A stretch of 64,000 nt of DNA. Source: Poriferisphaera corsica (GTDB lineage: Bacteria > Planctomycetota > Phycisphaerae > Phycisphaerales > Phycisphaeraceae). A model generated the notes under the pieces. It did not search any database. It had not been told where the DNA came from and was given only the letters and a program-made list of their open reading frames with translations. Location of the stretch: positions 496,001 to 560,000 of the forward strand of contig NZ_CP036425.1 in NCBI RefSeq assembly GCF_007747445.1, in the 5' to 3' direction. A program made the position numbers and the translations under genes. The first letter of the stretch is position 1. Every line of letters starts with the position of its first letter. This document shows, in pieces, positions 9,067 to 28,986 of the stretch.

Positions 9067-9074
9067 CCATAAAC

Positions 9075-11483: not shown

Positions 11484-11511
11484 GGCTGACTTCCCAGAAG
11501 TCAGCCTTTTT
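11484..11511 (+). terminator. Terminator of the sigma factor gene
   Basis: GGCTGACTTC and GAAGTCAGCC form a perfect 10-bp stem with a 3-base loop, followed by five T residues. Confidence 0.9.
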
Positions 11512-11573
11512 CTTCATCCCCTTCTCAATGATATAATGCATCCTTAACCGCAACCTCAACCAAAGGCCGCATC

Positions 11574-12011: not shown

Positions 12012-12047
12012 CCCCTCACCCGAAAAATGTCACCCCTAATTCATCCC

Positions 12048-12107
12048 CAAGCCCATGACCGCTGGTCATGGGGTGTCGTGCAACCTCATCCTCAATCGCC
12101 TGCAATC
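12048..12107 (+). repeat. Interspersed hairpin repeat, copy B
   Basis: CCAAG, perfect 9-bp stem (12052-12060 with 12064-12072), loop GCT, then GGTGT, CAACCT and a tail CTCAATCGCCTGCAAT shared with copies C and D. The remaining bases of the 12012-12334 gap show nothing else I can identify. Confidence 0.85.
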
Positions 12108-12334
12108 TACAACAACCAGCGAGCCTCCCTCCCACATAATCCTCCTTGCTCACTATTCACACACCCAGCATTTCGTTCCCCCGATAATCTTCACGGTCAT
12201 CGTCACCTATCATTCGCGCTTTCTCTACATGCTTTCCGCATCTCGCCTTTAAGACGCTAACGGCCGTACCCTTATCAGCCGAGCTTTAACAATGAGGCCC
12301 TCAAGTTCTCATTTCTCTAATCAAGGGATTGTCC

Positions 12335-12799
12335 ATGTGGTTTCGTTTCTCACACGTTACGCTCATCGCAACTGATTGGCGTAAACTCTCGCAGTTTTAC
12401 GTCGATGCCCTCGGCTGCGAAATCACGTACCCCGAGATCAACCTCGCTGGCCCTTGGCTTGACTCCGCCACCGGCATCAAAAACACACGCATCCGAGGTG
12501 TCAACCTCAAACTTCCCGGTTTGGATACCGCCAAAAACGGTGGCCCCTACATGGAAATTCTTCAATACACACCCGCGAAAAAATTACAGACCGAATCTAT
12601 CAACACACCAGGTTCCGGCCAAATCGCGTTTGAAGTCGAAGACGTTAAGATCGCCGCGCAAACATTAGCAAGCCTCGGCGCTTTGCCGCTCGGTAAATTC
12701 GAAAACATCTTCATGCCCGGTGTCGGCAACGTTCGGTTCCAATACTTTCATGACCCCGAAAAAAACCTCATCCAACTCATGCGGTGGGATCGAATCTAA
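12335..12799 (+). CDS. VOC-family (glyoxalase/bleomycin resistance-like) protein
   Basis: The 154-aa protein opens FRFSHVTLIATDWRKLSQFY, the usual first half of a vicinal-oxygen-chelate domain with a metal-ligand His, and has SGQIAFEVEDVKIAAQ and RFQYFHDPEKNLIQLM in the second half, where the DPEKN(L)I(Q)L ending is typical. The reaction is unknown. ATG 12335 is chosen because AAGGGA lies 6 bases upstream; a TTG two codons earlier would abut that site. It converges on the aldo-keto reductase gene across a shared hairpin. Confidence 0.85.
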   Translation: MWFRFSHVTLIATDWRKLSQFYVDALGCEITYPEINLAGPWLDSATGIKNTRIRGVNLKLPGLDTAKNGGPYMEILQYTPAKKLQTESINTPGSGQIAFEVEDVKIAAQTLASLGALPLGKFENIFMPGVGNVRFQYFHDPEKNLIQLMRWDRI

Positions 12800-12825
12800 T
12801 GCTCAAATAGTTTGATCGCCGTATT

Positions 12826-12864
12826 AAAAAAGGCTCACACATAAACGTGTGAGCCTTTGTTTTT
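12826..12864. terminator. Bidirectional terminator between VOC and aldo-keto reductase genes
   Basis: GGCTCACAC and GTGTGAGCC pair over 9 bp around a 6-base loop. A-runs lie to the left and T-runs to the right, so it can serve both convergent genes. Confidence 0.88.
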
Positions 12865-12875
12865 AAAAGTACAGA

Positions 12876-13862
12876 TTAATACCCAAGCACCTTATCAATC
12901 CGATTGAGTACATCTTCACTCAAATCATCCATCTCCAGCACCTTCACATTTTCTTCAATCTGACTTAGCCTGCTCGCTCCAATCAACGCGCTCGTCACAC
13001 GCTTGTCACGCAGTACCCATTTAAGTGACATCTGCGCCAAGCTCATCCCACATTCTTCTGCAATCGAATTCAGTTGTTGCAGTTTCCCAACCATCTCTTC
13101 CGTCACCGCACTCTCTTGCAAGAACCCATCCGGGTCAGCCGCACGCGAATCTTTAGGCACGCCATTCAAATACTTATTCGTCAACAATCCCTGAGCCAGC
13201 GGGCAGAACACTATCACCCCAAAGCCAATATCATCTGCCGCATCTAACAACCCATCCTCAATCCACCGATCCATCATGTGGTACAGCGGCTGATGAATCG
13301 TCAAAGGCACTCTCCCGCCTCTTAAACTTTCCGCAGCCAATCGCGTACGAGCCGCATCGTAACTACTAATCCCCGCATAGAGCGCTTTCCCTTGTTTTAC
13401 TAACTGTTCAAGCGCCCCCATCGTCTCGTCTAGCGGCGTCTCCATATCCGGCCTGTGCGAATAGAAAATATCAACATAATCAACACCCAACCGCTTCAAG
13501 CTCTGTTCGCAACTCGCAATCAAATACTTCTTACTACCAAAATCACCATACGGCCCAGGCCACATTCCCCAACCCGCCTTCGAACTAATCAATAGTTCGT
13601 CGCGATATCCCTTCAAATCTTTCTTCAACACTTCCCCAAGAACCTCTTCAGCTCTTCCGGGGGGCGGCCCATAATTATTCGCCATATCAATATGATTGAT
13701 CCCAAGATCAAACGCACCACACACCAACTCTTTCGTCTTCTCAAATTCCGTAAAGTTGTGCCATCCACCCAACGAAATCCGCGGCAGCTTCAGCCCGCTT
13801 CGACCACACCGTGCATATTCCATCTTCTCATACCGCGCCACATCAATATCATTCTGACCCAT
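12876..13862 (-). CDS. yghZ: Aldo/keto reductase, YghZ (L-glyceraldehyde 3-phosphate reductase) type
   Basis: An NADPH-dependent carbonyl reductase of the AKR superfamily. The close match to E. coli YghZ as I remember it includes CGRSGLKLPRISLGGWHNF, NNYGPPPGRAEEVLG, SSKAGWGMWPGPYG, DIFYSHRPD, GISSYDAARTRLAAE, FCPLAQGLLTNKYLNG and SALIGASRLSQIEENV. The catalytic Asp/Tyr (DMANNYG), Lys (SKAG) and His (FYSHR) are all present. Length is 328 aa from ATG 13862, which has AAGGA 7-8 bases upstream; an in-frame GTG five codons earlier overlaps that site. The physiological substrate in this organism is unproven. Confidence 0.92.
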   Translation of the reverse strand: MGQNDIDVARYEKMEYARCGRSGLKLPRISLGGWHNFTEFEKTKELVCGAFDLGINHIDMANNYGPPPGRAEEVLGEVLKKDLKGYRDELLISSKAGWGMWPGPYGDFGSKKYLIASCEQSLKRLGVDYVDIFYSHRPDMETPLDETMGALEQLVKQGKALYAGISSYDAARTRLAAESLRGGRVPLTIHQPLYHMMDRWIEDGLLDAADDIGFGVIVFCPLAQGLLTNKYLNGVPKDSRAADPDGFLQESAVTEEMVGKLQQLNSIAEECGMSLAQMSLKWVLRDKRVTSALIGASRLSQIEENVKVLEMDDLSEDVLNRIDKVLGY

Positions 13863-13982
13863 CACTAGTTCCTTCACTGTTTGAACAAAAACACCACCGC
13901 CCGAATCACAATACCAACTGAACTTTTATCCCACCTCGCCTATTCCTTCGATCTTATCAACCAACTCAAAAATATCTATCAC

Positions 13983-14012
13983 AAAAAAAGCCGCGACTCA
14001 CGCCGCAGCTTT
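13983..14012 (-). terminator. Terminator of nadA
   Basis: On the minus strand AAGCTGCG pairs with CGCGGCTT (one G-T pair) and a run of seven T residues follows, about 35 bases past the nadA stop. Confidence 0.8.
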
Positions 14013-14046
14013 TACTAATCATTTTAGTGTAACCATACACCTCGCC

Positions 14047-15210
14047 CTAAACCTTCACCGCTTCCCCCGTTGTCACACGAAGCATCCGCTCCATCGACAC
14101 CTTCGCCCAGTGTTGCACACCTTCAGGCACGCTCACCTGATTCACAACCTCCCCTTCAACCAACTGATCCATCACATAAAGCAAATGCGGCATATCAATC
14201 CGGTACATTGTCGTACATAAACATTGGCACTCCGACAGCATCCGCACCTCAACACCCTTCTCCTTCATCTCATCTCGCAACCGATTAACAAGATGCACTT
14301 CGGTGCCAATCGCCCACCGACTTCCAGCCGCCGACGCCGTCACCGCCTTGATAATCGCTTCCGTCGAACCACTACAGTCCGCCGCCTTCACCACCGCATG
14401 ATCACACTCCGGATGCACCATCACCGTCACGTCCGGCCACACCTCTTTCACCTGCCCCACATGCTCCGGCCGAAACAACTTATGCACCGAGCAATGCCCC
14501 TTCCACAAAATAAAACTCGACCGCCGCACATCCGCTTCCCCGCAAGCTTCAGGCTCCTTCGGATCGTAAACCACCATCTCCTTCTCAACATCAAACCCCA
14601 AATCCGCACCCGTGTTCCGTCCCAAATGCTGGTCAGGCAAGAACAAAATCTTAACCTGCTCCCCATCTTTCAATGGCTCATCACTACCCGCCAGCGCCCA
14701 CCTCAACATCTTCTCCGCATTACTGCTCGTACACACCGCACCCCCATGCTCACCACAAAACGCCTTGATCGCCGCCGTGCAGTTCATATAACACATCGGC
14801 ACGATCCTAACGTTCTCCCCTCGCACACACTCATGCAAATATTCCCACGCCTCAACCGTCTGCTCATAGTTCGCCATGTCCGCCATCGAGCACCCCGCCC
14901 CCATGTCCGGCAAGATCACCGCAACATCATCATCCGTCAAGATATCCGCGCTCTCCGCCATGAAATGCACCCCAGCAAAGATCACCCACTTGCTCCCCCG
15001 CTCAACCACAGCCTCCGCCGCCAACTGCGACAGCTTAAAACTGTCCCCGGTAAAATCGGCAAACCGCACCACATCGTCCTGCTGATAGTGATGCCCCAAA
15101 ACCACCAAGTCATCCCCTAACTCAGCCTTCCGCGCAGCAATCGCAACCGCCAACGCGTCATCGTCCATCTTCACATACTTATCCGGCAAAGGTGCCTGCC
15201 ACAACATCAT
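14047..15210 (-). CDS. nadA: Quinolinate synthase A
   Basis: NadA condenses iminoaspartate with dihydroxyacetone phosphate to quinolinate in NAD synthesis, using a [4Fe-4S] cluster. Seen motifs include VVLGHHYQQDDV near residue 40, FAGVHFMAESADIL, ILPDMGAGCSMAD, a YMNCTAAIKAFC region, FLPDQHLGRNTG, VHPECDHAVV, TEVHLVNRL and the cysteine-rich SECQCLCTTMYRI. Three of these Cys (in MNC, PECD and ECQCLC) are the likely cluster ligands. The 387-aa length is slightly above the common 350. nadB and nadC are not adjacent. A terminator follows. Confidence 0.95.
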   Translation of the reverse strand: MMLWQAPLPDKYVKMDDDALAVAIAARKAELGDDLVVLGHHYQQDDVVRFADFTGDSFKLSQLAAEAVVERGSKWVIFAGVHFMAESADILTDDDVAVILPDMGAGCSMADMANYEQTVEAWEYLHECVRGENVRIVPMCYMNCTAAIKAFCGEHGGAVCTSSNAEKMLRWALAGSDEPLKDGEQVKILFLPDQHLGRNTGADLGFDVEKEMVVYDPKEPEACGEADVRRSSFILWKGHCSVHKLFRPEHVGQVKEVWPDVTVMVHPECDHAVVKAADCSGSTEAIIKAVTASAAGSRWAIGTEVHLVNRLRDEMKEKGVEVRMLSECQCLCTTMYRIDMPHLLYVMDQLVEGEVVNQVSVPEGVQHWAKVSMERMLRVTTGEAVKV

Positions 15211-15375
15211 CAGTCCTGCTCCATTCGTGCAATTTCAATCCCATAACATCACGCCACCCCTCAAACCTCAAATTATAGCCAATCTCACCAATCGCCCCCA
15301 ATCTCCCCCCAATTCCCTTCCTAATTCCCTCCAATTCTTCCTTCAAATCCTCTCGATTATCCACCCCGAATCATT

Positions 15376-15433
15376 CTCAAGCCCATGACCGCCGGTCATG
15401 GGGTGTTGCGCAACCCGCTCTTAATCGCCTGTA
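15376..15433 (+). repeat. Interspersed hairpin repeat, copy C
   Basis: TCTCAAG, perfect 9-bp stem (15382-15390 with 15394-15402), loop GCC, then GGTGT, GCAACCC and TTAATCGCCTGTA. It lies between nadA and the 717-aa protein gene, about 50 bases past the latter's stop. Confidence 0.85.
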
Positions 15434-15450
15434 TCACCCCTTTCCTTCCC

Positions 15451-17604
15451 TTATCTTATCCGCCTCCAATTCCGCTCATTTTTCGACAATTCCTCTTCCT
15501 CCCCATTCATCCGGTGCAAGTAATTCCGACCGTCCCGCGCCACCTCATCCCAAAACGCTTTCGCCGTCTCCGGGAACAGCTCCGCATAAATCGCCTTATA
15601 CCCCTTCCCCGGTACGCTTAAATAAACAGTCACATCCCCGCCATCGTTATGCCACCCCGATATCCCCTGTGAGTTTTTCCCCCCATCATCCACCCCATTC
15701 TTACCGACTGAATACACCACGCACCCCGTCTCGCCCCTGCGATACCGTAATCCCTCTTTCGCCTCATCCATCAAATCCCGCGGCACATCCTCCAGCAACC
15801 CCGTCTCAACCAACACATTCAAATCTTCCGGATACCCATTCCCTCCGCTCGCCTCTTCCCCATACCTCACCCGCCACAATTCCAACGCAGCAGCCACCTC
15901 ATACAAATCCACCATCACCCGCGACTGCTTCATCGTCCGCCCATAAGTACTAAGCCCCGGCATAAACTCCCGCCAAAACATACCACTCACCAAATACCCC
16001 ATGGGGATACGCTCATAGGCATCATCAAGGTTCTCAATATCATATTCACCAACATCTAATGGCTGGATAGCCTGCTCGTATGTCTCAACCCCCCAAGCCA
16101 TATCCGCCGACATCACGCCCAGCTTATCCATCGACCAAATCGCCCCATAACTCGGCACTCCGTTCCCACCTGCCTGCGCAACCCACTCATAATCATTCAG
16201 CAAACGATCTCCCATTTCAACTAATTGTGTCCGTTCCGCAATCAAGGAATTTTTAAAAGATTGGATACCCCGCTCCTCTGAAAATCGGCATAGCTTCGCA
16301 ACTTCTACCAGTTGCTCTTCACTGAAAACATGCATACTCAAACAATCATCCACGACCCCCATCATCAACGCTCGAATACTCACCGCCACCAACTGTGCAA
16401 TGATCGTTGGCTCATCAATCCCAAGATCATATAACCGCCTGATCCCTCGCAGTCCCCTCAATGCCTCCCCGCCATCCCCTTCCTGTGTCTTCAACCAGAC
16501 ATACATCTGCAAAGTTCTCGCCGCTCGTCTCTGCGCCCCAAGTTGCGGCATCAAAAGCTCCCATAAATTCGAATAATCCCCCGGCCACCTCACCGCAATC
16601 TCCGCGTCTTCGCCTTTCACCAATTCCCCTTCTTCATTCATCACCCGAAAATACTCATCCCCCGGCCCATCCATCAGTCTTTCCAATTCATCCTCCATCA
16701 ACCCAACATACCGGCGCACGCCATCCACCATCACATCCGCCGCCCGTCCCTCAACCCACAAATCCGGCCCCATCCCGATCACCGGCAACTCCACCGGCTT
16801 TCCATAAAATAATTCAGAGACCATCCATGCACCGTAATTATGGCTTAATCCACCGCCCATCCCCATACTTTCATACATACCCGCCACTTGCCATTGACCA
16901 TCTGACTTCCGTTCCACCAGACTGACCTCATCATCCACCAACACCCACTCCTCCATAGACGTTGTCGATTCCTCATCCACCTCAGCTTCTTCAATCTCTT
17001 CACCTTCATCTATCATTCTGAAAGTTCCTATCCCCATGCCCATCCCCATCATGTCTAATCCAGAAAACTCATCCTCTATTTCCGTTCGCTCAATCTCAAC
17101 AAACACCGCATTCTTACGCCCCTCACCATTGATCGCCATCCAATCCCCATCCTCATCTTGGCCAAGCGCACCTTTCGCCAGAAGCGCATCCTTCACCTGC
17201 TGCTTGATGTGCCATACCGCAATGTCGCCCGCATCCCCCTGTATTGCTTGCGCCTCAAAACTCTCAACTTCTTCCTCTAGATCTTCAAACACACTCAAAT
17301 AAAATTCAGTGACATCCACCTCCCCATCATCAATCTGATACCACGCATCCAGATCCCCACCCGTGACCGGATACCCGTCTGCTCTAATCTGCGCATAGAT
17401 GGCCGCCAGCCGCGCTTCCTGTTCCCATTTCCAATTCACCTGCCACACCACACCAATCCCAATCAGCACCGCGCATACCGCCAAGACCACATACACCGCC
17501 TTGCGATGCTTGCCAATAATCTTTAACTCTAAATCAATCCCCGTCACCTCATCTCGCCCATAATCCTCAGCCTCCATCCCATGTTTCTTTTTCAATCTAA
17601 TCAT
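15451..17604 (-). CDS. Large membrane-anchored protein of unknown function
   Basis: I do not recognise a named family. The 717-aa product has a short basic, cytoplasmic N-terminus, one transmembrane helix at about residues 35-53 (AVYVVLAVCAVLIGIGVVW), and a long, strongly acidic extracytoplasmic region rich in Glu, Asp and Met/Gly. The last ~150 residues (AAALELWRVRYG ... GYPEDLNVLV ... YSVGKNGVDDGG) resemble the C-terminal pattern of planctomycete pseudopilin-like and secreted proteins, where YPE..L and G.NG.DDGG recur. That likeness is from memory. No secretion genes are adjacent. The start could also be the Met at residue 10. Confidence 0.75.
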   Translation of the reverse strand: MIRLKKKHGMEAEDYGRDEVTGIDLELKIIGKHRKAVYVVLAVCAVLIGIGVVWQVNWKWEQEARLAAIYAQIRADGYPVTGGDLDAWYQIDDGEVDVTEFYLSVFEDLEEEVESFEAQAIQGDAGDIAVWHIKQQVKDALLAKGALGQDEDGDWMAINGEGRKNAVFVEIERTEIEDEFSGLDMMGMGMGIGTFRMIDEGEEIEEAEVDEESTTSMEEWVLVDDEVSLVERKSDGQWQVAGMYESMGMGGGLSHNYGAWMVSELFYGKPVELPVIGMGPDLWVEGRAADVMVDGVRRYVGLMEDELERLMDGPGDEYFRVMNEEGELVKGEDAEIAVRWPGDYSNLWELLMPQLGAQRRAARTLQMYVWLKTQEGDGGEALRGLRGIRRLYDLGIDEPTIIAQLVAVSIRALMMGVVDDCLSMHVFSEEQLVEVAKLCRFSEERGIQSFKNSLIAERTQLVEMGDRLLNDYEWVAQAGGNGVPSYGAIWSMDKLGVMSADMAWGVETYEQAIQPLDVGEYDIENLDDAYERIPMGYLVSGMFWREFMPGLSTYGRTMKQSRVMVDLYEVAAALELWRVRYGEEASGGNGYPEDLNVLVETGLLEDVPRDLMDEAKEGLRYRRGETGCVVYSVGKNGVDDGGKNSQGISGWHNDGGDVTVYLSVPGKGYKAIYAELFPETAKAFWDEVARDGRNYLHRMNGEEEELSKNERNWRRIR

Positions 17605-17666
17605 CTATTAGCCTCCCGGATGTCCCCTTCTCCCTCAAAAAAAACAAAACAAGATCACAAATTTCT

Positions 17667-17725
17667 CAAGCCCGTCACCGCCGGTGGCGGGGTGTCCTCC
17701 AACCCACGTTCAATCACCTGCAATC
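17667..17725 (+). repeat. Interspersed hairpin repeat, copy D
   Basis: CTCAAG, 9-bp stem with one G-T pair (17671-17679 with 17683-17691), loop GCC, then GGTGT, CCAACCC and TTCAATCACCTGCAAT. It lies in the 17605-17971 gap between divergent genes; the rest of that gap shows nothing identifiable. Confidence 0.85.
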
Positions 17726-17971
17726 CACCCCATCGTCGCCGCGATACCCCGCTTCGCGCCGCTATGCGCTCGTTAAAAAATAAAGAGACATTGACTCACC
17801 AAGTATAACACCCAGCCCGACATGCCAATACACCTCATTCACATGTTTTCTGCATACACAAACCTGCGTTTTTCCGATACCATAACCAGTCACGTAACTT
17901 AAATAACCAGCCTGCATCATTCAGTACACGATTGATTGTTGCAGGCAGCTGCAGAGAGCCATTTCACAACC

Positions 17972-19423
17972 ATGCCCACTCACTTCCACGGCGGTATGAC
18001 CTTCCAAGCAGGTAAACCTTACCCCTTTCCCAGCCTGCCGAAAAATATCCCCGCCCATCCTCTGCGCATCACTGTCACCGACCCCCCCATCGTCACCGTT
18101 GGCCAAACCATCACCGCCTCCCAAAAACTCACCGAACCCTTCAAGCCTCAATCCCCCTGCTACTTCTCACCCATCCCCGCTACCGTGACCCACATCACCC
18201 CCTGGCAGCCCGATGACTTCCATCGCCACACCCACGCCCGCAATCCGCATGAAATAAATCACCCCACCACACAGCTTTACGACATCCACCTCAAACCCAT
18301 CCCCCCCAGCCCCCCCGCTGCCTCCGCATGCGATCAGTCCGCAGATGAAAACAACCCCTTAACCGTACCTGCCGCATTAAACATCGCGCCGCCCGACAAG
18401 CCCACACTCAAAAGCTGGTTTCAGCATTTTCGTGCTCTCGGCCCGTGGCCCCAAGACGAGATTGGCTGTGATCTGATCACACAACTCGCCGCAGTCCTGC
18501 ACAACAAGCATTACCAATCCAAACCCCCTAAGTCATTGATATGCATCGGGATGGATGCATACTCCCCGTACCCCGATCGCTCATCACTGCTGCTTTCTTA
18601 CCCCGATGATGCGGTGCTTGGCCTGCAAATCCTCGGCAACCTGCTCAACGTGAAACGCCCCAAGCTCGTCATCGATGCAAATCCGCACTTGGAAGGGTTT
18701 CTCAAAAACCCATGTAAGTCCTTCAAAATTAAACTCTTGTGTGCTCGCAATCGTTACCCCGCCCCAGACCCCACACTCATCGCCCACACACTTGAAAACA
18801 CCAAGCTTCCGCAGAACGGAAGTCCGACCGATGTCGGCATCGTCATGGTCACACCCTGGACAGTTATCCGCATCGCTCGCTGGATGACGCGGCGGCAACT
18901 CGATGTTTTACAACCGGTTATGATTGCCGAGCCGCATCGAGACAAGCACCCGCAGCGACACTTTGCCATGCCCGGCACGGAGATCTGCTGCGTCGATCAC
19001 ACCCTCCACGGCTGCACCGAGCGATTGCGCGGCAAACTCATCGCAGGCAACCCCCTGACAGGTAACCAGTTATGTGCCCCCGCTCTGGTCGCTCAACAGC
19101 AGGAGCATTCACGCAGAGCGCCTGATAGCTTGCCGCCCACGATTCGTCACGGCATGCAATTACTCACGAACCTCGCCTCCACGCATCATTTAGAGCCTGC
19201 GCCCTGTATCACTTGCGGGTGGTGTGTCGACGCGTGTCCGACCGGCTTGCAACCCGTTCATCTTGCGGAGCAGATTCATAACCATCAAAACAGCAAGCAG
19301 TTGCAAGATCATCTGCAGTACTGCATTGGTTGTGGGTTGTGTACACATGTATGCCCTTCTCACCTGCCGATTGCTCAGATTCTCGCTCAAGCCAATGCGC
19401 CAATTACCCCCCAAATTAAGTAA
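17972..19423 (+). CDS. RnfC-like iron-sulfur protein (orphan)
   Basis: Two classical ferredoxin-type cluster motifs lie near the C-terminus: CITCGWCVDACP and CIGCGLCTHVCP, as in RnfC, the cluster-bearing NADH-side subunit of the Rnf ion-translocating complex. The opening THFHGGMTFQAGK matches the RnfC start, and the next gene encodes an RnfD-like membrane protein. The Gly-rich flavin/NADH loop of RnfC (GGAGFPT) is not visible; its place is taken by RALGPWPQDEIGCDL, so NADH binding may be lost. I start at ATG 17972; the frame stays open to a TTG 12 codons earlier. The gene ends 67 bases before the RnfD-like gene, consistent with an operon. Confidence 0.78.
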   Translation: MPTHFHGGMTFQAGKPYPFPSLPKNIPAHPLRITVTDPPIVTVGQTITASQKLTEPFKPQSPCYFSPIPATVTHITPWQPDDFHRHTHARNPHEINHPTTQLYDIHLKPIPPSPPAASACDQSADENNPLTVPAALNIAPPDKPTLKSWFQHFRALGPWPQDEIGCDLITQLAAVLHNKHYQSKPPKSLICIGMDAYSPYPDRSSLLLSYPDDAVLGLQILGNLLNVKRPKLVIDANPHLEGFLKNPCKSFKIKLLCARNRYPAPDPTLIAHTLENTKLPQNGSPTDVGIVMVTPWTVIRIARWMTRRQLDVLQPVMIAEPHRDKHPQRHFAMPGTEICCVDHTLHGCTERLRGKLIAGNPLTGNQLCAPALVAQQQEHSRRAPDSLPPTIRHGMQLLTNLASTHHLEPAPCITCGWCVDACPTGLQPVHLAEQIHNHQNSKQLQDHLQYCIGCGLCTHVCPSHLPIAQILAQANAPITPQIK

Positions 19424-19490
19424 AAAATAGCATATTGATCGTTTGTAAGTATTTGTAGAATAAATAATTTAGGAGACCATAACGCAAGCC

Positions 19491-20702
19491 ATGAACACCG
19501 GCCAACACATCCCACTTACACCGCTCAAGCCGCATAAGGGCTTGCCAACCGATGGCCCCCCGTGGATCGATAACGCTTATTGTCGGCAAGGTTACGATGT
19601 CATGTGGATCGTAACTGCTTGTCTAATGATGGCTTACAGTCTTGTTTTCTGGGGATATCGGGCTGGAGCACTCATCATTACCGCGGTTTTCTGCACGATG
19701 GCTGCGAGTTTTTTGACCTCGAAAATCCGGTCTCGATTTTCTAAGTTAAGTTATGACAAAACGTTAACGTACTCATTTTGGAATGGTGCGTTGTTCGCGA
19801 TGGTGTTGCCGCTGGTTCGGGATTTTGGCCCGTTCATCGTGGGGGGGCTGACATTGGGTGTGTTGATGAACTTTTTTGGCCGCTCGCACCGGTTACGAAT
19901 TCATCCGATTGCATTAACGTTAGTACTTATTTGGCTTGTACCTACGTTAACCAGTGGTGGTGATTTATTGACCAGTCGGGGGATGATTGGGGAGCCGATT
20001 TCGACGATTTTGACGCCGAATCATCTGTTGGTGGGGGATGCATTTGAGGTGAGAGAGGGTGTGAGTGCGAGTGAGCCGGACACGCGCCCATGGATGCAAA
20101 CCATTGATTACCAAGAGGATGCGGTTGTGCGGTATAGTCCGCAGGTAGAGATGCTGTTGCATCAGCGTGAGTTATTAGATGATGTGGAATCTTTTTCTAA
20201 CTTGCTTGTTAGCAACACGATACTGCCGTTGGATGAGTTGCTTGTCGGGGTGGTTCCCGGATCGTTGGGCGCGGGGTCACCGGTGTTGCTGCTGGGGCTG
20301 GGTTTATTGTTGATTCACAGGCGGCATGCGAGTTGGCGGATGGCGGTGGCTGCGTTGGTTTCGATGCTGACGGTGTATTTGTTTATGCCGATGCGGACAG
20401 GGGGGCAGTGGACGGTGGTCATTTCGCAGTTGTCGCAATTAAATTGGCAGCAAGCGGTTACGTTTATGTCATATTTCTTTTTTGCTTCTCCTTGGTTGAT
20501 GATTGTGCTGATTTTGGGGCCGAGTGTTGATCCGATGTCGCGGAGTGGGCGGGTCGTTTTCGGGTTGCTTTTAGGGGGTTTGGTGGCGTGTGGTGTGTGG
20601 TTTTTTCAGTCGCCAGAGGCGATTTATGGGTCGCTGGTGATCGCTGGGCTGGTGTCACGGAAGCTGGATGGGATGCACCGATCTTCTTTTGTAGATGCGT
20701 GA
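19491..20702 (+). CDS. RnfD/NqrB-like integral membrane protein
   Basis: The 403-aa protein has about nine hydrophobic segments. RnfD/NqrB resemblance is clearest in LPLVRDFGPFIVGGL, FGRSHRLRIHPIALTL and VPGSLGAGSPVLLLGLGLLLIHRRHASWRM, the last matching the conserved GS.GE.S..A.L.GG..L...R...WR signature. The usual S-G-A-T flavinylation site is not seen; the matching loop reads ESFSNLLVSNTI. With the RnfC-like partner it may form a minimal electron-transfer module, but RnfA, B, E and G are absent here, so ion pumping is doubtful. The base composition of the gene switches from C-rich to G-rich after about residue 40. Confidence 0.72.
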   Translation: MNTGQHIPLTPLKPHKGLPTDGPPWIDNAYCRQGYDVMWIVTACLMMAYSLVFWGYRAGALIITAVFCTMAASFLTSKIRSRFSKLSYDKTLTYSFWNGALFAMVLPLVRDFGPFIVGGLTLGVLMNFFGRSHRLRIHPIALTLVLIWLVPTLTSGGDLLTSRGMIGEPISTILTPNHLLVGDAFEVREGVSASEPDTRPWMQTIDYQEDAVVRYSPQVEMLLHQRELLDDVESFSNLLVSNTILPLDELLVGVVPGSLGAGSPVLLLGLGLLLIHRRHASWRMAVAALVSMLTVYLFMPMRTGGQWTVVISQLSQLNWQQAVTFMSYFFFASPWLMIVLILGPSVDPMSRSGRVVFGLLLGGLVACGVWFFQSPEAIYGSLVIAGLVSRKLDGMHRSSFVDA

Positions 20703-21801
20703 TTTAATCAAATAAATGATTGGTATAGTCAATAAATAGGCGCGTTTGTGCGCGCATTTGGTGCGCTTATCGTGCATGTTGGCGCACAAAAATGCGCATT
20801 TCGCGGTGATAAGTCATTTTCATGATTGAGGTTACATGTAAATTGGTTCGTTATTTCAAAATGGCGTGTTTTGGCTGGATTTCGTCAAAGAACGGCTAAC
20901 TTTGGAAAGAAAAGTGTGAAAAGTGATCAGAAAAGGGCAAAGAATTGCGGGCTTGCGCTTTTTGTGTGCGCTTGGATGGCGAGGTGAGATGATTTTTGTG
21001 CGCGCAGGCGGATTGTTTACTTTTGGAAACCGCGATTGATGGGGTCGGAGTCATTCACTTTCAAGTGGATCGAAATGAGGGCATTCAGATGATGTGGGGA
21101 GCAGGCAGTCAGGGGAAACTGTGGATGGTGGCGGGTAACTTATGCGGGTCGTTAAAAGATGATCGAAATTTCACGTGTCAATTCAGATCAGCCACGTGAT
21201 CGTGGATGGGATGGTAATCAAGGTGTGACCATATGGCATGAAAAGATGTGGTGGGGGAGATTGGATTTGGTCAGGAAGGACAAGTTGGTTGTTAGAAGAT
21301 GGGTGCTAGTTTAGTGGTGTAAGGATGCAGATGTTGTCGATTCGAAGTGACGTTGTGTGTGGGGTAGGGTGAGGGGGGGATGAGTTGTGATTTCATGAGA
21401 TTTGCTGATGCCTTTCGGAACTAAACATGCGACTAAGGGTGTTGGGTATTTAGTTAGGGGTATTGAGTAGCTTTTAGTTGTCGTAGAAATATTGTGTGAT
21501 GTGGGTGGAGATCGCAAGGTCGCGATAGTCAGTTCTAACTAACAGTGAGTTAGTCAAAAAACCAAAGATTCTTGTTTTGTAATAGGGTTAACTTTATACT
21601 GTTTCGCTTGGATAAATGGGTTTACATGTTTTGTGGGAAGAACAGATTGGCGGAGTGGGGTTTGATCATGTTCTTCTACGATTAGGTGTATGGTGAGCGT
21701 ATGGGTGGGATTTTTTGTGACTAAAGCACATGAGAGCAAGATGCGCAAATTAGATCATTGGATTTGGTTTTACCTGTCGCGTATCGCATTTATTATTAAA
21801 G
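20703..21801. other. 1.1-kb gene-free region next to the main strand-composition switch
   Basis: No convincing coding sequence is present: the open frames are short (up to 68 codons), lack good ribosome sites and resemble nothing. Bases 20740-20805 contain several TGCGC/GCGCA words, with more at 20955-21005. Eight GATC sites occur. Only poor DnaA-box matches were found (TGTGGATGG at 21120). The + strand is G-rich here and C-rich left of 19.6 kb. Candidate origin or rearrangement boundary; see findings. Confidence 0.5.
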
Positions 21802-23259
21802 GTGAGAAAAGAATTGGAACCAGTTGAAACGCGAGAGCAGCCGGGGCATTTTAAAGCGTCATTTATTGATTATGTGTGGTTTTTGATCCCATCGTTGTTG
21901 GGTGTGTTTTTGTTTATCAGCCCGATCTGGCAGTCGAAGGTTGGTGAAGATGGTGAGGTGACGCGAGAGATCACGTTGCCGGTGGCGTGGATTGCGAACT
22001 GGGCGTCAGGCGAGTTAACAGATTTTTTGCCGAAGCTGACGCTGGGGATTTTGCTGGTGTCTGCTGTGGGTTCTTTGATTGTAAAGTTGGCTAAGCCTAA
22101 GCGTATATTAGATCATCCATTTTGGAGTAGTTTGTTTAATGTGAGTTGGTTCTGGGTTGGGGCGCGAACGCTTGGATGTTTGTTTGGGCTGATGGTGTTT
22201 TATGAGTATGGGACGGTGACGCTGTTTCAAACGGATACGGAGTATGTGGTGGATGGGGGGACAGGGAATTTTGCGTTTGGGGAGTTGGCGACGTTTTTGG
22301 TGGTGATTTTTTTCTTTGCGGGGTTATTCTTGCCGCTGCTGTTGGACTTTGGATTGTTGGAATTCATTGGGACGTTGATGTCGAAGATTATGCGTCCACT
22401 ATTTAAGTTGCCGGGCCGATCGGCGATTGATTGTGTGGCGTCGTGGGTGGGTGATGGTACGGTGGGTATTTTGCTGACGAGTAAGCAGTATGAGGCGGGG
22501 TTTTATACGTCGCGTGAGGCGGCGGTGGTGGGGACGACATTTTCGTTTGTGTCGATCACGTTTACGATTGTTGTGCTGAGTACGGTTGGGATAACAGATC
22601 TGTTTTTGCAGGCGTATTTGACGTTGGTTGTGGCGGGTTTGGCGGCGGCTGTTATTTGTCCGCGTATACCGCCGCTGAGTTGGAAGCCAGATACATTTTT
22701 TGAGGGGAAGCCGAAACGTGCAGAGCATAAGATGCCGCATGGAATGGGTTTGTTTGCGTGGGGTGTGAGGCGGGCGACGCATCGTGCGAATCAGGTTGAG
22801 GGGGTTATGCCTGCTGCGAAGTTGGGTGTTCAGAATGTGATGGATATGTGGGTGGGTGTTGTGCCGGTGGTTGTTGCGATGGCGACGGTGGCTGCGATCG
22901 TGGCTAATTTTACGCCGTTTTTTCAGTGGATGGGTGCACCGGTTGTGCCGGTGTTGAAGGCGATGGGGATTCCTGAGGCGGAAGAGGCGGGGTATATGTT
23001 TTTGATTGGATTTGCTGACATGTTGTTGCCGGCGATTTTTGCGGCTGACAAGATTGAGAGCGAGTTTACGCGGTTTATCATTGCGACGGTTTCATGTACG
23101 CAGTTGATTTACATGTCAGAGGTTGGGTCGCTGCTGATGGGTTCGAAGGTGCCTGTGAAGTTTTGGGAGTTGGTGGTGATCTTTGTGATTCGCACGATGA
23201 TTACGTTGCCGATTGTTGTGGGGATGGCGTATGGGATGCAGTGGTTGGGTTGGATGTAA
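21802..23259 (+). CDS. YjiH-type membrane protein with nucleoside-recognition (Gate) domains
   Basis: The 485-aa integral membrane protein matches the YjiH family: LLGVFLFISPI near the start, a central LLLDFGLLEFIGTLMSKIMRPLFKLPGRSAIDCVASW block, then DGTVGILLTSKQYEAGFYTSREAAVVGTTFSFVSITF, the Gate (nucleoside-recognition) domain pattern. A second Gate-like half lies near LIGFADMLLPAIFAADKI. Substrate transport is suspected in the family but not established. The GTG start at 21802 has a weak ribosome site, and TTG 21814 is possible. A strong terminator follows. Confidence 0.85.
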   Translation: MRKELEPVETREQPGHFKASFIDYVWFLIPSLLGVFLFISPIWQSKVGEDGEVTREITLPVAWIANWASGELTDFLPKLTLGILLVSAVGSLIVKLAKPKRILDHPFWSSLFNVSWFWVGARTLGCLFGLMVFYEYGTVTLFQTDTEYVVDGGTGNFAFGELATFLVVIFFFAGLFLPLLLDFGLLEFIGTLMSKIMRPLFKLPGRSAIDCVASWVGDGTVGILLTSKQYEAGFYTSREAAVVGTTFSFVSITFTIVVLSTVGITDLFLQAYLTLVVAGLAAAVICPRIPPLSWKPDTFFEGKPKRAEHKMPHGMGLFAWGVRRATHRANQVEGVMPAAKLGVQNVMDMWVGVVPVVVAMATVAAIVANFTPFFQWMGAPVVPVLKAMGIPEAEEAGYMFLIGFADMLLPAIFAADKIESEFTRFIIATVSCTQLIYMSEVGSLLMGSKVPVKFWELVVIFVIRTMITLPIVVGMAYGMQWLGWM

Positions 23260-23289
23260 AGGATTGATGGGGACTAATGACAAGATAGA

Positions 23290-23319
23290 AAGCTCACGAT
23301 GAAGGTCGTGAGCTTTTTT
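23290..23319 (+). terminator. Terminator of the YjiH-type gene
   Basis: AAGCTCACGA pairs with TCGTGAGCTT around a 6-base loop and runs into six T residues. Confidence 0.88.
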
Positions 23320-23369
23320 ATTTGTATAAGTGATGAAGGCATGAAAGTGGTCACACTTCCGGGGGGGGA

Positions 23370-25277
23370 TTAGCCTGTGCCGGAAAGTTTGCGGACGGTT
23401 TGGTCGAAGTTTTTGACCATCGCATTGAGCATGGCGGCGACGATGAAGAAGTAGCCGGCGGCGGCGATGACGGCGGAGATGGTCATGAAGATGCGAGAGA
23501 AGCCGGGGTGCGCGGGGAAGCCGGAGACGTAGTCCCAGGGGTTGATGATCATGAGTGCGGCGGTGGTGGGTGAGAAAGCGTTGAAGGTTGCGCCGAAGAT
23601 GACGGGTGTGTTGAGTGCGAGGTTGAAGCCGCAGAAGCCAAAGACGAGTGAGACGAGGCCGATGATTGAGACGGAGGGGATGACGGCGCCGAGTACACCT
23701 TTGGATTTGAGAGACCAGTACATGCCGGTGGCGACGCAGAGGGCAACGAAGGGGATGAGGACGAGTGCGAGGAGGAGTGCGGACTCGGGAAGCATGAGCA
23801 TGGCTTCGTTGATGCGTGTGGCGGAGGTTGTGGCGAAGGTTGATTGGTGGGTGTAGATGGCGCCTTGCCAGCCGAAGATTGAGCCGAGGATGCTGTAGAC
23901 GGAGACGAGTGCGACGGTGAGTACGGGGACGGAGATGAGGAGGATGAGGAACTGGACGAGGCCGCGGAGTTTGCCCCAGACGTATTGTTTTTGGGTCATG
24001 GGTGTGGTGAGTAGGAGGTCGAGTGTGCCGTCTTCACGTTCACGGGAGACGCAGCCTGCGGCCATGTAGAGGGCGACGAGTGCGATGATGAGTATTTCCA
24101 TGAGTAGGAGGATGTAGAGGCCTTGCTTGAAGGTTTCGACGGGGAGCTGGTTGACGCCGGTCATGGTGGTGTTGAGGGTTGGGAGTGAGTTGAAGTGGTA
24201 GAGAGCGAGCCAGAGGATGGCGAGGGCGAGGCCGATGACGAGGAAGGCGTAGCGAGAGAGGATGGCGTTGAGTGCGTTGCCACGGGTGTGGGATTCACGC
24301 CAAGCGATGGGGTTGCGGCCGGTGACGTGGCGGGGCTTGCGTTTGCGCGCGGCGCCGTCGGGGTTGAGTCGGAGTTTTGATTTGATGTAGATGACGAGTT
24401 TGGAGTCGCCGCGGCCGACGTTTCGGAGGACGAGGGCTGACCAGGTGATGAGGGTGAGTGAGGTTAATGAGGTGAGGAAGAGGAATGAGGCGAGGGGTTG
24501 GCCGAGGAGGTAGCGTGCGATTGGGCCGTAGGAGGCGAGCATGTCGGGGGTGTGGATTTGGTAGTTGTCGGGGCGTACGAGCGTGTCGAGGACGAGGAGG
24601 GGGTGGAAGGGTGTGAGGTAGGTGGTGTAGTTGCCGGGGGTGAGTCGTTGGATGATGAAGGAGTCGAGCATGTATGCGGCGAGGAGGTATGCGGCGATGG
24701 AGATGACGAATGTGAAGACGGCTTTGCGGCCGCCGAGTCGCATGACGGAGAGGAAGACGGCGACGGAGCCGACGAAGATGGCGGTGGTTGCGGCGATGGA
24801 GAATGCGTAGAAGACGGAGGAGGCGCGGACGCCGCCGAAGATGAGGAGGATGGCGAAGAGTGGTAGGCCTGAGGCGAGGAGTGAGAGGATGAAGAAGAGT
24901 CGTCCGATGAGGTTGCCGAGGACGATCTGCATGTTGGTGAGGGGGGTTGTGAGGAGGATGTCGTAGGTTTTGGCGGATTGTTCCTGGGAAATGGCGGCGG
25001 CCATGAAGAGGGGAGCGATGAGGCAGACGAGGACGATCTGGCCGTAGGCGATGATTTGGAAGATGGATGAGCCTGATGCGGCGAGGTCGGAGAGGGCGAC
25101 ATTGGAGCCCATGCCTTCACCGGCCATGAGACCGAAGAAAACGATGAGAACGAGTGCGCCGAGATAGCCCATGCGTAGCCAGAGATCGCGCATGCGGACG
25201 GAGCCGCCTGAGACGATACGGACGACCATGGGGTTGCCGGGGATCATACGCCAGAGCCAATGGGTCAGAACTTGCAT
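23370..25277 (-). CDS. Tandemly duplicated ABC-2 type transporter permease
   Basis: The 635-aa protein has about twelve hydrophobic segments in two homologous halves. Each half carries the ABC-2 permease motif that follows a transmembrane helix: residues 97-126 (ISQEQSAKTYDILLTTPLT) and 411-440 (VSREREDGTLDLLLTTPMT). Halves with the E(R/Q)..(G/K)TLDLLLTTP pattern are typical of the NosY/GldF-like permease superfamily. The linker at about 290-330 is basic and cytoplasmic. An ATP-binding partner is expected, but none is adjacent: lptB is 17 kb away and belongs to LPS export. The cargo is unknown. Confidence 0.85.
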   Translation of the reverse strand: MQVLTHWLWRMIPGNPMVVRIVSGGSVRMRDLWLRMGYLGALVLIVFFGLMAGEGMGSNVALSDLAASGSSIFQIIAYGQIVLVCLIAPLFMAAAISQEQSAKTYDILLTTPLTNMQIVLGNLIGRLFFILSLLASGLPLFAILLIFGGVRASSVFYAFSIAATTAIFVGSVAVFLSVMRLGGRKAVFTFVISIAAYLLAAYMLDSFIIQRLTPGNYTTYLTPFHPLLVLDTLVRPDNYQIHTPDMLASYGPIARYLLGQPLASFLFLTSLTSLTLITWSALVLRNVGRGDSKLVIYIKSKLRLNPDGAARKRKPRHVTGRNPIAWRESHTRGNALNAILSRYAFLVIGLALAILWLALYHFNSLPTLNTTMTGVNQLPVETFKQGLYILLLMEILIIALVALYMAAGCVSREREDGTLDLLLTTPMTQKQYVWGKLRGLVQFLILLISVPVLTVALVSVYSILGSIFGWQGAIYTHQSTFATTSATRINEAMLMLPESALLLALVLIPFVALCVATGMYWSLKSKGVLGAVIPSVSIIGLVSLVFGFCGFNLALNTPVIFGATFNAFSPTTAALMIINPWDYVSGFPAHPGFSRIFMTISAVIAAAGYFFIVAAMLNAMVKNFDQTVRKLSGTG

Positions 25278-25551
25278 AGTGACATCATAACTTCTGTAAG
25301 GGTGGGTGTTAATCGAAAAGGTTGTGCGGGTCGCATGTGTGGGGATGATGAGGTGAGAGGTTGCGTGTGAGGGGTAAGCGGCGTCCGTAGGTAGAGACGT
25401 TATTGAGGGGAGGATGTTTCAGGGAATTGGTGGTTGTGAAGAAAATGAAGCATCTGCGGCCAAGTATGATTGCGGCGAGGAATAGGTGGATACTTCACGA
25501 GTGGCGGTGGTGGGCTTGAAGGGGATGCGCAAGAGACACATTGAGGGGGGA

Positions 25552-25992
25552 TTAGTCGTGCTGTTCTACGAATTGTGATTTTGCGGTGGCGAGGGTGTGG
25601 GTGTCGGTGGTGATTTTGGCTGAGAGGCGATGGAGATTGCGGCGGGATTCGTCGATTTTTGCGGTGACGGTGTATGAGCCAGTGAGGGGGGCGGGGTTGC
25701 GGAAGCGGATGTCGAGGGTGGCGGTGACGGCGTGGATGTTGTTGAGGAGGAGGCATTGGGCCATGGCGGAGTCGAGTATTGCAGAGAGGATGCCGCCGTG
25801 GAGCTGGTTGGGGAAGCCTTTGAGATGGGGTCGGGGATTGAATGTGGCGGTAACGGTGTTGTCGGGGTTGAGGGTGCAGCGGAGGTTGAGGGAGTGGGGA
25901 TTGAGTTTGGAACAGATGATGCACTGAGCGTGAAGTTGATCGCGGAGGTTTTCGCCGGCGGGGGGTTCTGGAGGGATGTGTGTGGTGGTCAT
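25552..25992 (-). CDS. PaaI-family hotdog-fold thioesterase
   Basis: The 146-aa protein has the hotdog core of PaaI-type acyl-CoA thioesterases: CxxC near residue 24 (CIICSK), FQGFPN-like HLKGFPNQLHGGILSAILDSAMAQCL with the HGG motif and a catalytic Asp, then ATLDIRFRNPAPLTGSYTVTAKI. Two Cys at the start are seen in some members. The acyl substrate is unknown. The 270-base gap to the left contains nothing recognisable. On the right lies a hairpin repeat and the NifX-like gene on the same strand, but the two are separated by 220 bases. Confidence 0.87.
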   Translation of the reverse strand: MTTTHIPPEPPAGENLRDQLHAQCIICSKLNPHSLNLRCTLNPDNTVTATFNPRPHLKGFPNQLHGGILSAILDSAMAQCLLLNNIHAVTATLDIRFRNPAPLTGSYTVTAKIDESRRNLHRLSAKITTDTHTLATAKSQFVEQHD

Positions 25993-26149
25993 GGGTTTGG
26001 CTTTCAGTGTGAGGCGAGGCGGAGGGTCAAGGTCTGGCGAGAGGGGGGATGAATCACGTTTTACGTTTGCGTATTTTTAGAGTGTTTTTGCGTAAAAACT
26101 CATTTGTTGACCAGAAGGTCGATTGTTTGCGAACACTGTGGATCTTTGT

Positions 26150-26184
26150 CCCAAACACCCTGCCACCAGCGGTGGCAGGCTTGA
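26150..26184 (-). repeat. Interspersed hairpin repeat, copy E
   Basis: Read on the minus strand: CTCAAG, 9-bp stem (26171-26179 with 26159-26167), loop GCT, then GGTGTTTGGG. It is 37 bases past the stop of the NifX-like gene. Confidence 0.85.
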
Positions 26185-26215
26185 GGGGAGTACGTCAGAT
26201 TCAATGTGGTGCGTG

Positions 26216-26578
26216 TTAGTGATCGCAGTGATGCGGGTGATCGTGGCCGGGACAGACGGAGAGGTCGGCGCTGGAGGGGGCGGCGAGGTGCTGGGCGATG
26301 ATCTGGGCGGGGTCGTCTTGCGGGGAGGCGGGTTTGACTTGGATGTTACGAGCGAGGAGGCCGTTGAGTGCGCCTTGGCCGAGGCCACCAACGAGGACGA
26401 GGTCGATGTTGAGCGAGGAGATCCAGGTGGGGAGGCCGGAGCAGCCGTCGATGGTGCGGGGGAGGGTTTCGGAGTTGGTGATGGCGTTGTTGTCGTCGAT
26501 GGTGTAGACGGCGAGTGCGTCAGATTTGCCGAAGTGCCGGGAGAAGATGTTGTTTTTGAGTGGGATGGCGATGCGCAT
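26216..26578 (-). CDS. Dinitrogenase iron-molybdenum cofactor (NifX/NifB-C) domain protein
   Basis: The 120-aa protein is a single NifX/NafY-like domain: MRIAIPLKNN..SRHFGKSDALAVYTID, then IDLVLVGGLGQGALNGLLARNIQV, the standard pattern of proteins that bind iron-molybdenum or related metal clusters. The last 15 residues are Cys/His-rich (CPGHDHPHHCDH) and probably bind metal. No nitrogenase genes are present, so a general metal-cofactor carrier role is more likely. GGAG lies upstream of the ATG. Confidence 0.88.
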   Translation of the reverse strand: MRIAIPLKNNIFSRHFGKSDALAVYTIDDNNAITNSETLPRTIDGCSGLPTWISSLNIDLVLVGGLGQGALNGLLARNIQVKPASPQDDPAQIIAQHLAAPSSADLSVCPGHDHPHHCDH

Positions 26579-26964
26579 GTTGAAGCTCCAAAGAAAAAAG
26601 CCGCTGGATGGCCGAGGGATCGGCGGTTCAGGCGGCTGGGTGGTTCAGATTGAATACTAGATGATAAAGCAATCTCGTTAGTTTATGCAAGTGTGTAATT
26701 AGGCCTAGAAAGGAGCGAGTGATATACGGATATCATTATATTTAGCGACTATTTATAGGGTTATACCTTAAGTGGATGTTTCGTTTCGTCGATTTTTGAG
26801 GAGAGAACAGACCAAATTCCGTCGTAAGCGTCTTGCAGATATGAACAAAAGAGATGTAAGTCGTGATGATTTTGGGGGGAGCCAGCAGGTCGGTGAGTCG
26901 CCGGGGTTGTGCAGAAGCTGCTGAGAGATGGAATAAGAAGATCCTGATAGATGGAGGCATGATG
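26579..26964. other. Intergenic region upstream of the chemoreceptor gene
   Basis: About 390 bases. AT-rich near 26680-26760, where a promoter for the chemoreceptor may lie. The reading frame of the chemoreceptor extends back to 26863 but lacks a ribosome site there. No flagellar-type promoter was recognised. Confidence 0.4.
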
Positions 26965-28986
26965 ATGTCGAGAATTAAATCGCTCTTATCACAGAGTATT
27001 GGTGTGCGGATTACGGTGATTGTGTTGGTGTTGATCACGGTTTCGATGGGTGTGTTGTCGTGGATGGCGGTGAGCAAGGCGAGTCGGGCTTTGAATGATC
27101 AGGGGGTTGCGAGTGCGAAGCAGACGACGGAATTGATCGTTGCGATGTGTAAGCTGCAGAAGGAGATGATTGGTGCGAAATTGGTGTCGGATTTGCGTGT
27201 GGCGGAGGACTTGATGGCGATTGAAGGGGGTGGGCTTGAGCAGTGGGAGGGAGCGATTGGTTTTGAGGAGCAGGTGAAGCAGATTGGGAAGTATGAGGTT
27301 CCGCTGATGAAGGTTGGTGGGCGAGAGTTGACGGGTGATTTTGGATTGGTGGATGAGGTGTTAGCGCAGACGGGTTCGACGTGCACGGTGTTTCAGGTGT
27401 TGCCGCGGGAGTGGTTGCGTGTGACGACGAATGTGAAGAAGCCGGATGGGAGTCGTGCGGTGGGGACGACATTGGGGAGTGGGTCGCCGGTGTATCAGTA
27501 TGTGATGGGTGGTGAGACGTATTTTGGTTCGAATATGATTCAGGGTAAGCGTTATGAGACGGCCTATCGGCCGATTAGAGGCGAGGGTGGTGAGGTTGTT
27601 GCGGTGTTGTATGTGGGTGTGCCATACGAGCAGTTTAATTCGCTGAAGCAGGCGATGAAGGAGATGAAGATTGGGGAATCAGGGTATGCGTTTGCGGTGA
27701 ATATGGATGGAGACGCGGTGATTCATCCGACGGTTGAGGGTGAGAATATGAGTGATGCGGCCTTTGTGAAGGAGATGCTGTCGAATGAAGCGGGTGTTAC
27801 ACAGTATGCGTATGATGGGGTTGAGAAGTTGGTGGCCTACGAGCGGTTTGAGCCGTATGGCTGGGTGATTGGTACAGGGTATTCGGTTGAGGAATTGGAA
27901 GCGGCTTCGACGCAATTGAAGTATGAAGCGCTGATGATGACGTTGGTGATTTTAGGGATTGGTGCGGTGGTTTGCGTGTGGATGGGGCGCACGATTAGTA
28001 AAGGGATTATGCGGGTTGCGGATGCGGTTAATGGGATTGCTGAAGGGGAGGGGGATCTGACAAAGCGACTGGAGGTGACTTCGAAGGATGAGGTGGGTGA
28101 ATTGTGTCATCGTGTGAATGATTTTATTGGGAATATCCAAGAGATTATTAAAGAGTGTAAGCGTTCGTCGCATGAGGTGGCTTCGTTTGCATCACAGGTG
28201 GCGGCGAGTTCGGAAGAGATATCGCAAGGTCTTGAGGAACAGAAGCATCAGACGCAGCAGGTGTCGGCGGGCGTTGAAGAGATGAGCTCGAGTGTGGCGG
28301 AGGTGGCGACGCAGTCACAGAGCGCAGCACAGAATGCGATCGATTCGCGGTCACATGCTGAAGAGGGCAAGACGATTGTCAGTGATACGATTGAGTCTAT
28401 TCATGTCATAGATGGCATTGTGAATAAGACGGGAGATGCGATTGGTCAGTTGGGGAATCGGGCGGATCAGATCGGTGAGATTATTCAAGTGATTAATGAT
28501 ATTGCAGATCAGACGAACTTGTTGGCGCTCAATGCTGCGATTGAAGCGGCAAGAGCGGGTGAGCATGGGCGCGGGTTTGCGGTGGTGGCGGATGAGGTTC
28601 GAAAGTTGGCGGATCGTACGACGACGGCGACGGAGCAGATTGAGGAATCGATCAATCAGGTGCAGTCGGATACGCAGCAAGCGGTTAGCCGGATGGCGGA
28701 GGGAACGGAGTCGGTGAAGCGTGGTGTTGAACTGGCATCGGGTGCGGGTGATGCGCTTGATCAGATTGTGACGCGGTCGGGTGATGTTGCGGGTGTGATT
28801 CAGAATATCGCATCGGCGGCAGAGCAGCAGTCGGGCGCGGCGCTTGCGATTGGTGAAAATGTACAGCAGATTTCAGCGATTGCTGATCAGACGGGGCAAG
28901 GCGCGAAGCAGTCGGCGGAGGCGGCGATGGAGCTGAGTGCAAAGAGTAAGCAGCTATTATCGCTGGTTGATCGTTTTAAGGTTTAA
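26965..28986 (+). CDS. Methyl-accepting chemotaxis protein with Cache sensor
   Basis: A chemoreceptor of about 673 aa. A transmembrane helix near residues 14-35 is followed by a periplasmic Cache region (residues about 60-300; [13 protein letters not shown] and [19 protein letters not shown] are typical of Cache-3/Cache-2 fusions), a second helix, a HAMP linker ([18 protein letters not shown]) and the signalling domain with the hairpin tip ([40 protein letters not shown], positions about 28490-28610). GGAGG at 26953-26957 sits 7 bases before ATG 26965; two preceding Met codons are closer. No CheW/CheA genes are adjacent. The ligand is unknown. Confidence 0.93.

Follow-up and report, generated by a model that had tools for sequence, protein, structure and literature searches.

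A 64,000-nucleotide stretch of the Poriferisphaera corsica chromosome (positions 496,001–560,000; hereafter the window) contains a sharp switch in strand composition next to an array of short motif sites, and this locus is probably a bidirectional replication origin specified by sequence, one among roughly 100 that are dispersed over the bacterium's single chromosome; judging from the sequence, we put the probability of this reading at about 0.7. The chromosome is a single contig of 4,291,168 bp, the size given for strain KS4 (PMC7783415). In the 1,664,000 bases that were read (most of 0–0.9 Mb, all of 0.9–1.7 Mb and the last 20 kb; 39% of the chromosome), GC skew describes a sawtooth that is independent of gene strand, its abrupt rises share a motif that predicts further rises in unseen DNA, and pattern and motif recur in a second member of the genus. 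From these observations we infer that replication underlies the pattern and that it is still at work in this way.

Results

In 2-kb windows, the skew passes from −0.53 at 15–17 kb to +0.41 at 20–22 kb of the window, with a cumulative GC-skew minimum at 19,560, and 10-kb arms laid around the switch have skews of −0.37 on the left and +0.42 on the right. The strongest 10-kb contrast (0.80, at 20.0 kb) lies beyond the maximum of 0.44 reached in 5000 permutations of 500-bp bins, and the switch thus exceeds chance. An earlier note on this DNA had placed an abrupt C-to-G change near 19.6 kb, inside an RnfD-like gene, and was correct in both respects; its sample base counts (26 C/7 G, 27 C/5 G, 25 G/10 C and 25 G/15 C) were reproduced exactly on recounting. 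The change is not a flat two-state step, as the skew decays in both directions and reverses near 2–3 kb and at ~49–57 kb. Zero is crossed at fraction 0.54 of the interval on the left (478,430–515,560 in contig coordinates) and 0.68 of that on the right (515,560–571,176).

The switch is one of many. With 6-kb arms, a threshold of 0.35 and a 12-kb separation, 41 C-to-G up-jumps were found in 1.64 Mb of the first 1.7 Mb (21 in 0–0.9 Mb and 20 in 0.9–1.7 Mb), at a mean spacing of 41.3 kb (median 38.1 kb) and with gradual declines between them; extrapolated linearly, this amounts to about 100 jumps over the whole chromosome. Among sharp steps (3-kb arms, threshold 0.5), 26 lead up and 1 leads down, which argues against inversions, since these would sharpen both signs equally. 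A single oriC, with one skew minimum per chromosome, is therefore not what the 41 up-jumps describe. The proposal of the earlier note that the window holds a candidate replication origin is supported as far as an origin-type switch is concerned and fails for a single origin of the chromosome. The note had regarded many such switches as a sign against its proposal; many there are, yet their regularity, their one-directional sharpness and their common motif argue against noise or rearrangement as the cause. On both sides of the jumps the sign is that of a G-rich leading strand, and the direction of the AT skew agrees. The mean skew over 0–1.7 Mb is +0.094 and zero is crossed at interval fraction 0.60 rather than 0.50; it may be that a master origin superimposes a weak, chromosome-wide wave on the sawtooth. 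Amid the sawtooth, ~70 kb at about 1,240,000–1,310,000 (G000:C1) are nearly free of skew; by eye, and from ORFs (open reading frames) rather than family searches, they resemble a phage-like or defence island, and DNA of recent acquisition would be expected not yet to carry the skew of its host.

The independence from gene strand that had been proposed for the window was upheld over 1,130 long, non-overlapping ORFs of the genome, called mechanically and some of them surely spurious. At 1–5 kb from the jumps, third-position skew on the + strand is −0.56 (+ genes) and −0.46 (− genes) on the left, and +0.64 and +0.59, respectively, on the right. When ORFs no more than 20 kb from a jump are taken, the side of the jump alone accounts for this skew with an R2 of 0.72 and gene strand alone with an R2 of 0.00. 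Transcription is a known source of skew, and regularly placed transcription units might, directly or through R-loops, be imagined to generate the sawtooth. This explanation is nevertheless very improbable: genes of either strand show the same sign of skew, none of the third-position skew is attributable to gene strand, and the idea is contradicted unless noncoding transcripts tens of kilobases long leave each array.

The declines between jumps scale with the interval. The longer the interval, the higher the skew at 8–12 kb from a jump (Spearman 0.64, p 1e-5, intervals <90 kb), and profiles drawn in fractional coordinates are near-identical for intervals of 20–35, 35–45 and 45–70 kb. Over 1,467 1-kb bins, one 112-kb interval being excluded, a sigmoid around mid-interval (four parameters) fitted with an R2 of 0.75–0.76, a line in fractional position (two parameters) with 0.68 and an exponential decay from each site (three parameters) with 0.64–0.67; the jumps were picked from the data fitted, which favours every model. 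With shifted jumps, the line model did not exceed an R2 of 0.17 in 200 shifts. A decay of fixed length from each site was accordingly set aside as the poorer fit, and the sigmoid is the shape predicted if forks meet at variable points of mid-interval.

The jumps share a sequence. When the genome was searched with the intergenic DNA of the window, a second place was found at 572,564–572,594, beside the next jump, and in the 1.5 kb around each of the 21 jumps in 0–0.9 Mb the strongest enrichment of any word was that of GCGCACAA and its extensions. The GCGCACAAA word was found at the jumps of this region, and the strict form YGCGCACAAAM was picked by eye from the sites; the latter occurs 175 times in the genome, as against 16 for its reversed control. 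The TGCGC words that the earlier note had remarked on, in a gene-free region of ~1.1 kb that is indeed devoid of long ORFs, are thus the mark common to the switches. In the unseen 0.9–1.7 Mb, 32 strict sites form 19 clusters; the skew contrast is >0.35 at 81% of the sites, compared with 12% of random points, and a strict site lies within 2.4 kb of 15 of the 20 up-jumps and of none of the 7 down-steps. Within 2.5 kb, YGCGCACAAAM accompanies 32 of the 41 jumps, GCGCACAAA 37, GCGCACAA 39 and a reversed 8-mer 6, the corresponding fractions at random points being 0.116, 0.145, 0.227 and 0.124. Conversely, 59 of 69 strict sites lie within 2.5 kb of a jump, and 59 of 64 in the read DNA fall outside ORFs, which cover 82% of it. 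A sequence element common to the sites is what a multi-origin chromosome would be expected to have.

Of the GCGCACAA pairs at most 400 bp apart, 19 of 74 are spaced by 140–159 bp, a figure that, like the 147-bp spacing of motif copies, comes without a shuffled control. Some sites form the palindrome TTTGTGCGCACAAA (for example at 304.9, 1,018.7 and 1,080.5 kb), and GGTGAGAAA and AGAAATGG are likewise enriched in the clusters. For the 27 oriented clusters that have a jump, the zero crossing of the skew lies ~1 kb 3′ of the motif in the motif's own orientation, and the offsets differ between plus and minus clusters (p 0.009; 11 and 13 clusters). The array of the window, at 20,744–21,004, agrees with this: both of its strict sites are on the minus strand, and the switch is to the left of the array, as expected, at a distance of 1.2 kb.

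Features of the window are collected in Table 1. The RnfC-like and RnfD-like genes are adjacent (17936–20702). At 48565–48720, overlapping short tandem repeats with periods of 9–33 bp and GCTTCAGC words fall within a 1,209-aa minus-strand ORF (45856–49485). Rfam and tRNA scans of the window gave no matches.

Table 1. Coordinates of the proposed origin and its surroundings (window positions)
Feature	Position	Strand	Remarks
Skew switch zone, proposed origin	19400..21004	.	Spans cumulative GC-skew minimum (19,560) to motif array
C-rich + strand flank	3000..19560	.	Reverses near 2–3 kb; would be copied mostly by leftward forks of the proposed origin
G-rich + strand flank	19560..57000	.	Fades from ~40 kb; reverses between ~49 and 57 kb
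RnfC-like gene, left neighbour	17936..19423	+	4Fe-4S dicluster domains (Pfam matches)
RnfD-like gene containing cumulative minimum	19491..20702	+	PF03116, E 2e-13
Gate-domain (nucleoside recognition) membrane protein gene, right neighbour	21802..23259	+	PF07670; ZRK32 ortholog also adjoins a switch
Intergenic stretch bearing motif array	20703..21801	.	Without listed ORF of at least 100 aa
Strict motif site (YGCGCACAAAM)	20744..20754	-	Motif scan
Relaxed motif site GCGCACAA	20782..20789	+	Motif scan
Strict motif site (YGCGCACAAAM)	20994..21004	-	Motif scan

The pattern is found again in a sister species. A genome of 5,234,020 bp (G052) was taken as that of P. heterotrophicis ZRK32, for which this size is given (PMC10945688; record CP066225.1). 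It displays the same sawtooth, with seven jumps in 200 kb, five of them with a strict and all seven with a relaxed motif site within 3 kb. The ZRK32 relative of the Gate-domain gene (60% identity, best segment) adjoins a switch with two motif copies; no Rnf-like neighbours were seen, by eye, among the ORFs around it. Two places agree between the species, namely the switch of the window and, in P. corsica, one near 8 kb. No jump of P. corsica corresponds to the weakest one in ZRK32 (2,535 kb), and sites therefore seem to be gained and lost. A general agreement in gene-to-jump distance was not found over 18 gene matches (rho 0.02, p 0.93).

Beyond the genus the picture thins out. No jump of at least 0.25 was found in samples of four other family members (G046, G064, G094 and G021; 494 kb together). 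In a member of another genus of the family (G073), 446 kb contain two jumps of 0.32–0.35, both within 0.7 kb of a strict motif, as well as several motif sites without a jump. There, motif pairs 101 bp apart lie in a similar recurring repeat, often at contig ends, which is possibly a mobile or homogenised origin-like repeat; examples are C3:132,128–132,239, which coincides with a skew switch, and C37:151,411–151,522. In overlapping samples of 101, 61 and 148 genomes covering the order, relatives and the class, the two Poriferisphaera genomes alone have more than 100 motif matches (175 and 252); G027 ranks next with 76 and, like G016, G065 and G103, shows a moderate excess of the motif. A family- or class-wide feature was rejected, the large motif excess being limited in these samples to the two Poriferisphaera genomes.

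As the earlier note had noticed, DnaA-box matches near the switch are poor: neither TTATCCACA nor TT[AT]TCCAC has a match in window positions 20,400–22,000, so that the box cluster of a single oriC is lacking. The note had also seen no dnaA or dnaN in the window; the nearest DnaA-domain matches lie at contig positions 361 and 230,859, and a dnaA/dnaN neighbourhood is thus absent as far as dnaA is concerned, dnaN not having been searched for. DnaA boxes were discarded as a mark of the jumps, few clusters carrying them. P. corsica has two DnaA proteins, DnaA1 with matches to the ATPase and DNA-binding domains and DnaA2 with matches to these and to the N-terminal domain; the latter, a divergent second DnaA, is encoded at G000:C1:230376–231932. 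The recognition-helix stretch, which presumably reads the DNA boxes, is GGRDHTTV in DnaA1 and GRKTHSTV in DnaA2. DnaA2-like proteins extend across the order, with at least two matches in 47 of 51 genomes, some of these matches being pieces of one gene, and GRKTHSTV is common to P. corsica, ZRK32 and a relative (G026) that has no motif excess (8 matches, control 5). DnaA2 was accordingly rejected as a genus-specific initiator, and no GCGCACAA was found in the dnaA2 loci of P. corsica or ZRK32; at most, DnaA2 may be a re-used part.

Discussion

We propose that the intergenic array of GCGCACAAA-type sites in the window marks an origin, to which an initiator would presumably bind. The leading strands would part ~1 kb 3′ of the motif, where the skew is seen to cross zero, and the forks of neighbouring origins, on average 41 kb apart, would meet in broad mid-interval zones. 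Strand-specific mutation would then render the leading strand rich in G and T and the sequence would thereby come to record the direction in which forks travel on average. As nearly every interval contains a reversal of sign, most forks crossing a flank would have to come from the adjacent site. This would in turn mean that the sites fire in most rounds, rather than one of the 100 in each round.

Alternatively, the motif sites may launch some other strand-asymmetric process, such as recombination- or break-induced synthesis or a long exposure of single strands, which spreads both ways while ordinary replication proceeds from one oriC. The switch lies ~1 kb off the array, which would suit such a process. 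We consider it unlikely, since a fixed reach per site fits worse than a meeting at mid-interval and skew at a given distance grows with the length of the interval; moreover, 3′ tails left by break resection would be expected to give the opposite sign. A shade less probable again is that the origins are fossils, the sawtooth recording a multi-origin replication that is now unused or confined to some life stage. Skew builds up over long times and gives no date for the process that shaped it. However, nearly all jumps still have a recognisable motif array, the arrays are mostly intergenic, and they have been kept beside the switch that P. corsica and ZRK32 have in common. Finally, extra switches are known to arise from rearrangement and misassembly (PMC7111523), but it is hardly credible that many inversions or assembly errors in an ordinary single-origin, strong-skew chromosome, or an inversion boundary at the window as the earlier note suggested, would yield the one-sided tally of sharp steps, a motif common to the jumps, and the same pattern, with a switch beside the same ortholog, in the separately deposited ZRK32 genome.

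Several observations weigh against dispersed origins. In 0.9–1.7 Mb, 5 of 20 jumps lack a strict site and 3 of 19 strict clusters lack a jump (945, 1,275 and 1,294 kb), the latter two sitting in the skew-free, phage-like island; 2 of all 41 jumps are without even GCGCACAA within 2.5 kb. By the 6-kb/0.35 rule there are also 19 down-steps (12 in 0–0.9 Mb and 7 in 0.9–1.7 Mb) for the 41 up-jumps. The strand switch stands ~1 kb off the array, and at oriC the two would coincide. Few clusters have canonical DnaA boxes, TTWTCCACR being present in 5 of 37 (5 sites versus 0.55 expected). Gene orientation does not follow the proposed forks (0.497 of 880 genes agree), and the evidence comes from 39% of the chromosome. 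At usual fork speeds, ~40 kb per origin would make for a very short replication, so that slow forks or asynchronous copies would be needed.

The proposed arrangement recalls several known systems without coinciding with any. Human replication N-domains (PMC3320577) have an abrupt change of skew at the borders formed by initiation zones and a gradual reversal between them, read as a gradient of fork polarity. The step counts and metaprofile of P. corsica have this form, with a skew that is independent of gene orientation, but human domains are of megabase scale, whereas those of the bacterium measure ~41 kb and have a short common motif at their borders. Synechocystis sp. PCC 6803 and other multi-origin cyanobacteria (PMC7198777) resemble P. 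corsica in that a bacterial chromosome is reported to replicate from multiple sites; there, however, replication is described as asynchronous and DnaA-independent, with irregular skew and no fixed motif-marked sites named in the text available to us, in contrast to the discrete, regular and motif-marked sites of the present sawtooth. Archaea such as Haloarcula, Haloferax and Sulfolobus have several sequence-defined origins per chromosome (PMC3936714, PMC4595724, PMC4403523), but the number given there is three, both for Sulfolobus and for Haloferax mediterranei, as against the ~100 suggested for a bacterium with two DnaA proteins. Skew switches and an initiator-type motif have also been used to propose double oriC regions in bacteria (PMC4403523); these number two per chromosome, with DnaA-box clusters adjoining replication genes. 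The same source warns that skew minima need not be origins and states that, as of 2015, two functional origins on one bacterial chromosome had not been demonstrated (PMC4403523). A paper on Achromatium mentions proposals that a bacterial chromosome may have more than one origin (PMC5587575). The accessible text of the SkewDB paper does not name Poriferisphaera and mentions multiple origins a single time, as one way in which an anomaly in Salmonella might be read (PMC8941118). The word 'skew' is absent from the main text of PMC7783415, and 'GC skew' from that of PMC10945688, whose record has one count of it, perhaps in a supplementary legend. Among the papers listed by full-text searches, which did not reach subscription journals or preprints, we recognised none describing such a pattern in Poriferisphaera.

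Chromosomes with multiple origins are known in archaea and eukaryotes. The rule that a bacterial chromosome has one origin is a premise of models of the cell cycle, of arguments from gene dosage and of the estimation of growth rates by read depth. It is tempting to speculate, and we would call it an even bet, that the genus Poriferisphaera has evolved a eukaryote-like replication programme. Each chromosome would then have ~100 discrete origins, every one of them specified by its own dedicated GCGCACAAA array, to which an initiator, either new or re-specialised, binds. The origins would fire in most cycles, their forks would merge at varying points of mid-interval, and no one origin–terminus axis would dominate. 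If this is true, estimates of growth based on depth and checks of assembly based on skew would fail for such genomes, and a cultured bacterium with ~100 sequence-defined origins would break the one-origin rule. One could then test directly why bacteria have kept to a single origin, how a control of once per cycle might be extended to many origins and by what route multi-origin replication can arise.

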